DNA of 64,000 nucleotides from Elusimicrobiota bacterium (GTDB taxonomy: Bacteria; Elusimicrobiota; Elusimicrobia; Elusimicrobiales; UBA9959): the NCBI GenBank assembly GCA_019135865.1, contig JAGVVD010000019.1, forward strand, positions 124,001 to 188,000. The letters are read 5' to 3'. Of the stretch, positions 3,680 to 6,972 are shown piece by piece. Position 1 is the stretch's first letter. The number at the start of each line of letters is the position of its first letter. Under the pieces are notes generated by a model that was not told the DNA's origin, searched no databases, and was given only the letters and a program-made list of their open reading frames with translations. The position numbers and the translations under genes were made by a program.

Positions 3680-4486
3680 ATGAGCAAAGAAGAATCCTAT
3701 TACGCCCATACGAAGCGCGCCTTGGATGGTACCCCTGCCCCCAAGAGCGACTGGCAGCCGCTGGACATGAGATTGTTCAACCTGTGGGCTAAGATCGACA
3801 GGGCATCCGGGGCCTGTCATCCTCTCATTCTCCATATGCTGGACGTGGCGGCGGTTGCCCATGCCGTGTTGGACCGGGAACCTATAGCGACCCGGGAAAA
3901 TATTGCCGCGGCCTTTGGGCTGAATTGGAATGGGGCGCGGTCATGGATTCTGTTAGCGGTCGCCTGCCACGATCTCGGCAAAGCCTGCCCCGGGTTTCAG
4001 ACTAAGTGGGCCGGCGCGGCACGGATAGGCCTTCCCATGCCGCGGGTGCCGGACAAAGACATCAACCACGGTTTTGTCAGCCAGATAGCTCTTTCCGACT
4101 GGCTGCAGCGGGAGCAAAACTGGCCGTCCGGTCTGGCCGAACTGGTCGGCGACGCTGTTGGCTGCCATCACGGGGAACGGGCAACCCCTTCTCTCATTGA
4201 GCGGCTTGACAGGAACAGGCGCGCGATCGGAGATGATAATTGGACCCGGGGCCGCAACGCGCTTATTTCCGCGGTGCTTGGCGTCTTCGGTGCTCACGGC
4301 GCCAGGCCGCCGGAGACCAAGCATACCCTTTCCGGTCCGGAATTCATGCTGCTCGCCGGCCTTACAAGTTTTTCTGACTGGCTTGGATCTGATGAAAATC
4401 ACTTTCGTTACGGGACATCAGATGATTGCGCGGATCTTACAGTGCGCTGGTCGGGAGGGTCTAGACCAGTTCTAAGCCCTTCCTAA
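3680..4486 (+). pseudogene. cas3: cas3 (type I-E), truncated: HD nuclease part only
   Basis: About 262 codons of Cas3 followed by a few codons read into the IS element. The HD nuclease domain is visible: HPLILHMLDVAAVAHAVL, CHDLGKACPGFQ (the HD pair), INHGFVS, GCHHGE and GLTSFSDWLGSDENHF. The SF2 helicase half, which should add about 600 residues, is missing because an IS3-family element begins near 4465. Type I-E Cas3 degrades DNA recruited by Cascade; without its helicase half and without any Cascade gene nearby it cannot support interference. A TAGACT box seven bases before the ATG suggests a leaderless start. Whether the HD fragment is still made is unknown. Confidence 0.88.
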
Positions 4487-5389
4487 GGTGGTCTGCATCA
4501 TCCCTGCCTGTCCGTCGTTAACCCTCCAGTCTGTCCCTGCCTTGTACGTCTCCCACGGCGTCCTGTCTTTCAGGCTCTGGTGCCGCCGCTCCATGTTATA
4601 GAACCTGAAGTAGCGCTCCAGCCCCGCCCTGCACTGCGGGATGTCCTGGTATTCGTGCAGGAAGATGTCCTCGTACTTCACCGCCCACCATAGCCGTTCC
4701 GTAAAGATGTTGTCGTAAGCCCTACCACGGCTGTCCATGCTGATCTTCACGGTTTCCTCGGCCTTCAGCCGGCTTATGAAGTCCTCGCTCGTAAACTGGC
4801 TGCCCTGGTCGCTGTTGAAGATCTCCGGCCTGCCGTGGCGCCGCAGCGCCTCGTCCAAGGGCTCGACGCAGAAACCGCTTTCCAGCGTGTTCGACAGTTT
4901 CCAGCTCAGCACCCGGCGGCTGTACCAGTCGATAATGGCCACCAGGTAGGCGAACCCGCGCTGCGCCAGCCGCACGTAGGTTATGTCCACGCCCCAGACC
5001 TGGTTCGGCCGGATAATCTCCAAGCCCTTGAGCAGGTACGGGTACACCCGATGCGCCGGATTGGGCTTCGACAGGTTCCTGGTCGGGAACAGCGCCATTA
5101 TGCCCATCTTACGCAGCAGCGTGCGGACGTGGTCTTTGCCGACGGGAATCTTCATGTCCAGTTGAAGGTATTTCCACATCCGCCGCACGCCGTAGAACGG
5201 CGCAGCCGTGTATTTTTCGTCCAGCAGCGCCATGATATTCAGGTCCCGCCGGCTTACCGGCACCGGCTTGTAGTACAGCGAGGACTTGCTTACCCCGAGC
5301 AGTTCGCACTGCTTGTTCTGGCTGTACGGACCGTCTTTATCAAAGAGCTTCTTCCTGGCTTCTACTTCAAGAGACCGAGCTTTTTTTTT
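4472..5389 (-). CDS. IS3-family transposase OrfB (DDE integrase), made by -1 frameshift
   Basis: The rve-type catalytic core is complete. The DDE residues sit in WGVDITYVRL, IFNSDQGSQF and TERLWWAVKYED. An HTH-like N-terminal part (LNIMALLDEKYTAAPFYGVR) precedes it. An ATG-initiated frame would begin at 5263, but the frame is open back to the A9 slip site and encodes the usual junction (KLFDKDGPYSQNKQCELLG), so the functional product is an OrfAB fusion. The stop lies in the terminal repeat. The element looks intact and could still be active. Confidence 0.9.
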   Translation of the reverse strand, partial: KKKARSLEVEARKKLFDKDGPYSQNKQCELLGVSKSSLYYKPVPVSRRDLNIMALLDEKYTAAPFYGVRRMWKYLQLDMKIPVGKDHVRTLLRKMGIMALFPTRNLSKPNPAHRVYPYLLKGLEIIRPNQVWGVDITYVRLAQRGFAYLVAIIDWYSRRVLSWKLSNTLESGFCVEPLDEALRRHGRPEIFNSDQGSQFTSEDFISRLKAEETVKISMDSRGRAYDNIFTERLWWAVKYEDIFLHEYQDIPQCRAGLERYFRFYNMERRHQSLKDRTPWETYKAGTDWRVNDGQAGMMQTTLGRA

Positions 5390-5646
5390 AGCCAGTCGTT
5401 CTCCATCGTTATTTCGCCGATGCTTTTGTGCAGGTTGTCTATCTTTTCCTGCACCTCGGCCGCGGCCCTGCGTTCCTTGGCATGGTCAAAGATCCCCGCC
5501 GCGTTGTTGAGAAGCTCGCGCTTCCAGCCGGTCACCATGTTCGGGTGAACCTGGAACTTTGCCGCGATTTCAGCGATAGTCAGCTCGCCTTTAAGGGCCT
5601 CCAGGGCCGCCTTGGCCTTGATTGCCGGGGCTATCTTCTTGCGCAT
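5362..5646 (-). CDS. IS3-family transposase OrfA (HTH_Tnp_1)
   Basis: A 94-residue protein with a helix-turn-helix (LTIAEIAAKFQVHPNMVTGW) and a C-terminal leucine-zipper-like coiled coil (ENDWLKKKLGLL). It is the DNA-binding part of the IS3 transposase and alone usually acts as a regulator. It ends in the alternative frame just after the slippery run. Start ATG at 5646 follows an AAGGAGG SD. Confidence 0.9.
   Translation of the reverse strand: MRKKIAPAIKAKAALEALKGELTIAEIAAKFQVHPNMVTGWKRELLNNAAGIFDHAKERRAAAEVQEKIDNLHKSIGEITMENDWLKKKLGLLK
5381..5390 (-). other. Programmed -1 frameshift site (A9)
   Basis: On the minus strand the sequence CTA followed by nine A and GCTC gives an A-AAA-AAG slip site near the end of orfA. 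Slipping back one base joins orfA to orfB, as in other IS3-family elements. Confidence 0.75.
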
Positions 5647-5695
5647 ACTGCCTCCTTAAGGTATTTTACCCAAAATACACCTTAAGTTAGGCTAG

Positions 5696-6176
<481 letters not shown>

Positions 6177-6260
6177 CAATTTGGTAGGCCTTAAAATCGG
6201 CTACCGGACGATTTTAGGTCTAAAAAGCGTTTATAGGGCATTTTAAGCGCAAATAGAAGT
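6177..6260 (+). promoter_or_regulatory. CRISPR leader
   Basis: An 84-base AT-rich stretch between cas2 and the first repeat. It holds an 8-bp perfect inverted repeat, TAAAATCG (6192-6199) and CGATTTTA (6209-6216), overlapped by GGTAG(G)CC / GGCTACC. A TTGACA motif overlaps the cas2 stop. Leaders of type I-E arrays carry the array promoter and integration signals; the inverted repeats may be remnants of these. Confidence 0.6.
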
Positions 6261-6533
6261 ACGTTCCCCACGTGCGTGGGGATGAACCGCATACGCCCAT
6301 AATCTCGGTCAGGAAGGGGTAACGTTCCCCACGTGCGTGGGGATGAACCGAGGCCATGCTCCTCATCCAGGGCGTCTACAACACGTTCCCCACGTGCGTG
6401 GGGATGAACCGCCTATGCCATAGCAAAGGAGTCATTTGGTGAGACGTTCCCCACGTGCGTGGGGATGAACCGATGGCTAAGAATATGATAGACCGGATGG
6501 TGTAACGTTCCCCACGTGCGTGGGGATAAACCG
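6261..6533 (+). CRISPR. Type I-E CRISPR array, 5 repeats and 4 spacers
   Basis: Five 29-base repeats begin at 6261, 6322, 6383, 6444 and 6505, an exact 61-base period with four 32-base spacers (6290-6321, 6351-6382, 6412-6443, 6473-6504). The repeat starts ACGTTCCCCACGTGCG and ends TGGGGATGAACCG; the inner CCCCACG/CGTGGGG arms form the hairpin typical of I-E repeats. The first four are identical. The fifth differs (GGATAAACCG), marking the leader-distal end. Repeat and spacer sizes and the cas2 type agree on I-E. No cas6e remains here to process the transcript. Confidence 0.97.
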
Positions 6534-6589
6534 CTGCGCTCCAACCTGCCGGTAGATTATTTAGGCGACGTTCTCTATCTAATCCTGGA

Positions 6590-6727
6590 AAAGGAATGAA
6601 ATGAGCGCGCCTCTCGTGAGAGCGCGCTCATTAGAGGGGGGACGGAGGGACGGCTCTTCCCCTCATACCACTGCCGGCTTTCGCCGGAAGCGCCGTAGGC
6701 AACGCCGATTTTCCTACTGTCGTCCCC
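6590..6727 (-). ncRNA. Candidate structured small RNA A
   Basis: A strong promoter (TTGAAA, 17 bases, TATAAT) fires toward the CRISPR array. The predicted RNA begins GGGGACG at about 6727, and this segment pairs with CGTCCCC (6638-6644) to close a junction holding three further hairpins: GTAGG/CCTAC (6713-6717 with 6695-6699), CCGGC-GAAA-GCCGG with a GNRA-type tetraloop (6674-6687), and GAGGG/CCCTC (6660-6664 with 6645-6649). It is followed by a terminator-like hairpin at 6601-6631. No open frame with coding features lies inside. It does not match the 4.5S, 6S, tmRNA or RNase P core motifs I know. Confidence 0.55.
6601..6631 (-). terminator. Hairpin at the end of candidate sRNA A
   Basis: ATGAGCGCGC / GCGCGCTCAT arms plus an inner TCTC/GAGA with one bulge form a stem of up to 14 bp. 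On the minus strand it is followed by TTTCATTCCTTTTCC, a moderate U-rich tail. Confidence 0.6.
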
Positions 6728-6733
6728 TTCTGG

Positions 6734-6762
6734 ATTATAGCCTCCCGGCCACGGTTTTTCAA
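6734..6762 (-). promoter_or_regulatory. Sigma-70 promoter of candidate sRNA A
   Basis: On the minus strand TTGAAA (6757-6762) and a consensus TATAAT (6734-6739) are separated by exactly 17 bases. The start is expected near 6727, where the RNA's closing stem begins. Confidence 0.75.
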
Positions 6763-6874: not shown

Positions 6875-6972
6875 TTAAGGACCGGCGCCGCAGCGGGGTT
6901 TGGGGTTGGGGCGGCGATCGGGGAGATCGCCGAGGACCGTTCGGGGGAACGGCCGCTGCTGCGGCACCGGCT
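6875..6972 (-). ncRNA. Candidate structured small RNA B with C-rich loops
   Basis: A 13-bp stem closes the element (6958-6970 with 6882-6894). It includes one pair that is G-U on the minus strand but A-C on the plus strand, which favours a minus-strand RNA. Inside are hairpins of 8 bp (6935-6954, loop CCCC, again with one G-U) and 7 bp (6913-6931, loop TCCCC), then a single-stranded run with three CCCC blocks. A promoter at 6979-7006 predicts a start near 6972, directly at the stem. C-rich loops are known in regulatory RNAs that pair with Shine-Dalgarno sequences. The 3' end is not clear. Confidence 0.5.
6895..6923 (+). other. G-quadruplex motif
   Basis: Four G4 tracts (6895-6898, 6902-6905, 6908-6911, 6920-6923) with loops TTT, TT and CGGCGATC meet the usual criterion for an intramolecular G-quadruplex on the plus strand. 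The motif is the complement of the C-rich segment of candidate RNA B. Confidence 0.6.

Follow-up and report, generated by a model that had tools for sequence, protein, structure and literature searches.

A tRNA-like RNA from the F–G junction of Mu-like phages, its orphan copy in an Elusimicrobiota genome and a possible role as RNA antitoxin

Close to a CRISPR array in the genome of an Elusimicrobiota bacterium (assembly GCA_019135865.1) lies a short minus-strand locus with the marks of a small RNA gene. What is this RNA, called RNA A below, where does it come from and what might it do? All coordinates refer to the window, the whole stretch of 64,000 nucleotides that was analysed (contig JAGVVD010000019.1, positions 124,001 to 188,000). 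A preliminary description, made from sequence alone, had proposed a promoter, a folded body and a terminator-like hairpin, but had missed the phage origin of RNA A, its likeness to tRNA and its tie to a toxin domain.

A conserved structured RNA in the window

The features of the locus are as follows.

6757..6762, minus strand: -35 box TTGAAA, kept in the three closest homologues
6734..6739, minus strand: -10 box TATAAT after a 17-nt spacer (promoter scan and alignment with homologues)
6638..6727, minus strand: RNA A body, tRNA-like, with four helices (covariance-model match and covariation)
6721..6727, minus strand: 5' strand of P1, GGGGACG, acceptor-like, 7 bp (two-sided changes in 6 of 7 pairs)
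6695..6717, minus strand: P2 hairpin, GTAGG-13 nt-CCTAC, D-arm-like (covariation)
6707-6704, minus strand: P2 loop CGGC, partner of the P4 loop (loop complementarity)
6669..6692, minus strand: P3, a variable hairpin with a GAAA tetraloop, in place of an anticodon arm (homologue comparison)
6645..6664, minus strand: P4 hairpin, GAGGG-10 nt-CCCTC, T-arm-like, abutting P1 (covariation)
6654-6651, minus strand: P4 loop GCCG (loop complementarity with P2)
6638..6644, minus strand: 3' strand of P1, CGTCCCC (covariation)
6585..6632, minus strand: terminator-like hairpin (6632-6600) and U-rich tail (self-complementary match, consensus fold)

The promoter matches the consensus at 11 of 12 positions and is the best of three promoter-like sites in 3.4 kb, a length in which shuffles give 1.3 sites of any quality. 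P1 (GGGGACG/CGTCCCC) begins at 6727, 6 nt past the -10 box. The hairpin is followed by the tail TTTCATTCCTTTTCC; it is absent from the output of a strict terminator scan because this tail is U-rich without a run of U. The hairpin and tail region also keeps an ATGA which, in phages, overlaps the stop codon of the F gene discussed below. Folding of the single sequence is weak for the 91-nt body alone (z -1.1) and better for body plus hairpin (z -3.4). The fold is therefore not proven by the window sequence by itself, and the proof comes from the comparison of homologues.

A blastn search of 101 related genomes recovered three full homologues, all in genomes of the same family, with 73-82% DNA identity from promoter through hairpin and unalignable flanks; two IMG/VR contigs provided further copies. 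RNAalifold on six relatives returned P1 (7 bp), P2, the variable P3, P4 and the hairpin, and nothing else. A covariance model, R1, built from six sequences including the window copy, scores the window RNA at 104.9 bits (E 2e-28) and identified seven further distinct copies in phage loci that had been fetched by their F protein. In the resulting alignment of 13 homologues, 95.2% of cells pair and 20 of the 27 pairs have changed on both sides. Covariation is 0.588, compared with 0.21 in shuffled alignments and 0.06-0.13 when partners are slid; the 13 sequences were fitted to the model, but the signal is nonetheless lost on sliding. In 13/13 sequences the P2 loop is complementary to the P4 loop, in three different versions (CGGC/GCCG, CGCC/GGCG, CGCUC/GAGCG), so that this contact covaries as well, and P3 differs among homologues in length and sequence while its stem is retained. 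RNA A is thus a real structured RNA, conserved with its promoter and hairpin as one block.

Searching 341 genomes of the phylum with the model gave four strong matches, the remainder, at 28 bits or below, being regarded as chance. Only short chance matches were returned by blastn against GenBank phages and plasmids, and an exact-pattern scan of reference genomes found no copies besides two Elusimicrobia metagenome-assembled genomes already known.

What had been claimed for the locus was upheld. The TTGAAA-17-TATAAT promoter with the closing helix at the predicted start, the four-helix body and the terminator-like hairpin with a U-rich tail all held, the last two being seen in the consensus fold of relatives; the body, given as 91 bases, spans about 90 nt in our coordinates. 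The orientation toward the CRISPR array and the end short of it held on coordinates, as the last repeat lies near 6505-6533. The compensatory changes in relatives that had been named as a test were found, as given above. The lack of a match to known housekeeping RNAs also held: at gathering cut-offs no Rfam family matches the window RNA or nine phage loci, and relaxed thresholds give only chance miRNA and lncRNA matches for the window RNA.

A CRISPR-related RNA (tracrRNA or CreA) was considered and rejected, since the homologues are in phages and RNA A contains no repeat-like sequence. No array spacer matched the fetched phage loci, and no other homologue was observed near an array; the CRISPR neighbourhood of RNA A is likely incidental.

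Relatives at the F–G junction and the orphan copy

Every homologue except the window copy lies between a gene for a Mu F-like minor head protein and a G-like gene, on the opposite strand, and the hosts are Mu-like prophages and phages, IMG/VR phages included. The RNA gene sits within the terminase-portal-F-G head module. In the Mu-like loci that we fetched (numbered with the prefix L), short F genes (~278 aa) and G share a 4-nt overlap; in most cases a gap of ~100-130 nt separates an F gene of ~430 aa from G.

These gaps carry RNAs resembling tRNA on the antisense strand. The T-loop motif GTTCRANYC is found antisense in 33 of 62 gaps and sense in none of the 62, with 0.5 expected from shuffles. 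An acceptor helix directly abutting a T-arm occurs in 22 of 60 gaps (3.2 in shuffled sequences, 2 on the sense strand), a pattern strict enough to overlook many slots that have a single mismatch or whose acceptor measures 8 bp. Upstream of the RNA slot, 45 of 62 phage gaps have a promoter-like site with at least 9/12 consensus matches, where shuffles give 4.8. Rfam tRNA-clan models match the slot above cut-off in L136 (35.7 bits), and further matches were obtained in L188, L147, L146, L133 and phage Pmp9, the tRNA-model scores among same-slot relatives ranging from 25 to 36 bits. ARAGORN called no tRNA among these tRNA-like slot RNAs, whose anticodon arm, judged by eye, is shortened or replaced. 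As a separate observation, the 340-nt F–G gap region of L141 apparently holds a second tRNA-like T-arm/acceptor sequence besides its antisense tRNA-like RNA.

The window RNA is called a tRNA neither by ARAGORN nor by the Rfam tRNA model, but meets the structural criterion of tRNA-likeness, namely a 7-bp acceptor abutting a T-arm together with a D/T-loop contact. P4 abuts the 7-bp P1 (6645/6644) and the P2 and P4 loops kiss. The window RNA thus builds the tRNA elbow in other sequence, with acceptor, T-arm, kissing loops and a degenerate anticodon arm. Common ancestry or function of the window-type RNA with the plainly tRNA-like kinds is inferred from their agreement in position, strand, promoter and architecture.

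In the window genome none of the phage context remains. No F gene of the phage kind was found there by a search that recovered the controls G014, G040 and G041, no second RNA copy is present in the genome, and tblastn revealed no F or G remnants beside the RNA. Homology with the phages starts shortly ahead of the F stop codon and runs to a point slightly upstream of the -35 box. A 61-aa ORF that the phage copies have on the opposite strand is frame-shifted in the window copy, while the RNA is intact. Given the absence of such an F gene from the genome, we call the window copy an orphan: a cassette of promoter, RNA and terminator-like hairpin.

The surroundings of the cassette deserve a brief description. 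Positions 3680-6533 of the window hold a degraded type I-E CRISPR locus, with a Cas3 HD fragment that runs up to a pair of IS3-type transposase genes:

4472-5646, minus strand: IS3-type transposase pair within the degraded I-E locus
5874-6176: cas2 of the degraded I-E locus, then a five-repeat array

On the other side, between RNA A and cstA, the minus strand of 6880-6971 has a strong fold (z -8.2) with a long closing helix and two inner hairpins; no relative of this segment was found by blastn in the 101 related genomes.

The C-terminal domain of F and its link to the RNA slot

In the phages bearing RNA A homologues, F consists of Phage_Mu_F (PF04233) followed by a C-terminal domain of probable MuF_C/PBECR type, an arrangement that fits the definition of a MuF polymorphic toxin; short F proteins do not have the C-terminal domain. 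PBECR was described as a predicted RNase, inactive in phage Mu, where RNA binding was suggested (Iyer 2017, PMC5512222); no RNA partner is named in the sections of that paper that bear on the question. Toxins with the BECR fold often cleave tRNA or other conserved RNAs (reviewed in PMC5512222). The Pfam evidence for the window-type F domain is weak, with MuF_C at 27.6 bits, just at the cut-off, in L053, and PBECR3 at 20-24 bits, below it. PBECR2 is strong (63-107 bits) in the gap-bearing F of L059, L072, L075 and L079, and PBECR3 reaches 28.3 bits in that of L124, slightly under the cut-off of 30. An AlphaFold2 model of the F C-terminal domain (pLDDT 94.6, pTM 0.89) gave no significant match in the PDB with Foldseek alone, and only the realigned list is informative: its four best matches are BrnT, HigB2, a CDI toxin and the RelE-type Cami1, with low Z scores (4.8-3.2). 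All four are of the RelE/BECR kind. A BECR fold of the F domain is a prediction that rests on a model and on these low scores. The active-site His column is nearly invariant across 31 C-terminal domains, L064 being the exception.

In the alignment, F proteins followed by a gap contain the motif xLxHADSxKH (xxHxxRxxK in the window type). Among 94 F proteins, 53 have both motif and gap, 41 have neither and none is discordant. On a tree of the 94 N-terminal regions both traits change 9 times; there are 9 independent pairs on all branches and 5 on well supported branches, where 5/5 agree (sign test 0.0625). The motif was lost by deletion in phages Mu, D3112 and JBD30 and by His replacement in Shewanella MuM16-1 and L064, with further losses in L135/137/139, L143 and L194; Mu, D3112, JBD30 and MuM16-1 have neither an intact motif nor the RNA. 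A close comparison is that of L056 and L064, whose F proteins are 91% identical: L056 has the His and a 128-nt gap with the RNA, whereas L064 has Asp, no gap and no RNA. Pasteurella phage Pmp9 combines the motif with a 123-nt unannotated gap holding a tRNA-like RNA.

The trait scored was the gap (threshold 80 nt) and not a proven RNA in each locus. Furthermore, the tree leaves out 15 loci in which the F C-terminus is of another or an ambiguous type; most of these have gaps, several together with PBECR2/3 domains, and so extend the rule. The 15 also include, however, L067, L101, L065 and L076, without an assigned domain, L120/122/207, with a variant motif, and L140, with Asp and a long gap without evident RNA. 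L083 lacks the motif and has an AT-rich gap of 79 nt, barely below the threshold, and for eight motif-bearing F genes G could not be located. Within these bounds, the sampled loci show a strict link between the RNA slot, scored as a gap, and an F with an intact RNase motif.

In D3112 and JBD30 (L132, L217), which have lost motif and RNA, anti-CRISPR genes directly follow G; the F-G-I region may therefore be a general site for accessory elements.

Possible functions and related systems

An RNA that occurs only beside an active RNase domain, is repeatedly lost with the active site, has its own promoter and resembles tRNA fits an RNA antitoxin or decoy. On balance we favour, by a modest margin, the reading of RNA A as the orphaned chromosomal copy of an RNA antitoxin, or immunity RNA, from phages, its neutralising action being inferred. 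In the proposed mechanism, the head protein F of Mu-like phages, often carrying a C-terminal PBECR RNase domain, would be expected to reach the recipient cell with the virion. Such phages would make an RNA of ~90 nt from the opposite strand of F–G and from its own vegetative-type promoter, which could allow its synthesis in a lysogen at a time when the late genes are off. Retaining the acceptor, T-arm and elbow shape without a normal anticodon arm, the RNA would most likely occupy the RNase domain in the manner of a tRNA decoy, without being productively cut, and may in this way protect lysogens as well as cells that are producing phage. The window genome, which lacks the phage genes, retains the cassette alone, plausibly as immunity against such phages. 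Structure, position, strand, promoter, tRNA-likeness, co-occurrence with an intact RNase motif and the orphan state are shown. Cleavage of tRNA by the domain, its neutralisation by the RNA and a benefit to the host are inferred, as there are no transcript, binding or toxicity data.

Several other explanations must be weighed. Instead of inhibiting the PBECR domain, the RNA could be its partner or its substrate: F might process it, virions might be loaded with it, or it might act as packaging RNA or cofactor. Its location in the head module and the RNA binding suggested for the inactive Mu domain (Iyer 2017, PMC5512222) speak for this idea. Loop-loop kissing can also be intermolecular, as in the pRNA of phi29. 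However, in Mu, L064 and MuM16-1, where the domain is catalytically dead, the RNA is lost, so that it tracks activity rather than head assembly, and a structural role leaves the orphan copy unexplained. We consider this rival unlikely, and a structural, packaging or substrate role remains possible and is not excluded. There is still less to recommend an antisense regulator that pairs with the F–G junction of the late mRNA and controls F or G. The RNA does lie on the strand opposite the operon, with its end at the stop codon of F, but perfect antisense needs neither a conserved tRNA-like structure nor compensated loop contacts, the RNA depends on the active site in the F C-terminus, and for the window copy there is neither an F nor a G to control.

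Equally improbable is immunity through a small protein from the F–G strand, the 61-aa ORF that overlaps F and G by ATGA, although immunity of this type has been proposed for MuF toxins generally. In each of the five phage copies examined for the window-type RNA this ORF is open, and small ORFs after MuF toxin genes have been reported (Jamet 2017, PMC5576092). Against it, the window copy breaks the protein frame and keeps the RNA pairs, and base-pair covariation and promoter favour the other strand. Moreover, a small ORF spans at least 90% of the gap in only 22 of 60 cases, on which ground the small protein was rejected as a general explanation. A last alternative concerns the window copy and not the phage family: it may be a relic of a dying prophage without present function. 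This is possible, as the genome has no F gene left for the RNA to act on and the adjacent I-E CRISPR locus is broken too; yet the promoter is near consensus, all helices are intact and the hairpin is near-perfect although the flanks are decayed and unalignable, and P3 has changed in sequence with its stem maintained.

The antitoxin reading can be taken further. In Mu-like phages, immunity RNAs that mimic tRNA but are not cleavable may form a widespread, undescribed class directed against virion-delivered PBECR tRNases, and bacteria may keep orphan copies for their defence, in this case next to a CRISPR-Cas locus that has decayed. This bolder version is tentative, and we would place it just on the doubtful side.

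The nearest known kinds are type III toxin-antitoxin systems and MuF polymorphic toxins, and by definition the RNA belongs to neither. As in ToxIN-like type III systems, a structured RNA is proposed to neutralise an adjacently encoded RNase toxin; in contrast to them, there is a single tRNA-like RNA without tandem repeats, on the opposite strand, with its own promoter and no shared operon, and the toxin, a PBECR domain, forms a fusion with a head protein of the virion. With MuF polymorphic toxins (Jamet 2017, PMC5576092; Iyer 2017, PMC5512222) the system shares a Mu F head domain with a C-terminal effector, temperate phages and a need for self-protection, but the proposed immunity element is RNA and not a small protein; an RNA immunity element is absent from the bearing sections of both papers. 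The likeness to tRNA (RF00005) lies in the 7-bp acceptor-like helix, the abutting T-arm and the D/T-loop contact, and some same-slot relatives score with the tRNA model; the differences are the lack of a usable anticodon arm and of an ARAGORN call and, in the window type, Watson-Crick kissing instead of the T-loop consensus. CreTA are RNA modules found at type I CRISPR loci. RNA A resembles them as a small RNA beside a CRISPR array with a tie to tRNA biology, but has no repeat-like part or link to cas genes, and all its other homologues are in phages. A literature search, partial in coverage, turned up neither an RNA described at the Mu F/G junction nor a phage antitoxin of tRNA-like form, and within these limits the family is previously undescribed.

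These results put forward an RNA that may be the partner of the PBECR/MuF-C domain, for which earlier work had settled neither the role nor the RNA target (Iyer 2017, PMC5512222). If the antitoxin reading is true, immunity to some phage polymorphic toxins is borne by RNA, and structured RNAs that stand alone in bacterial genomes may be orphaned immunity genes. A predictive rule also follows, in that an intact His motif in F announces an antisense tRNA-like RNA at F–G and a dead motif announces none, which offers a route to toxins and their likely targets.

A few loci have F–G gaps behind an F whose C-terminus has no assigned domain (L065, L076, L067 and L101). L065 and L076 have a structured antisense RNA in common, and the four loci possibly represent more toxin/RNA pairs.
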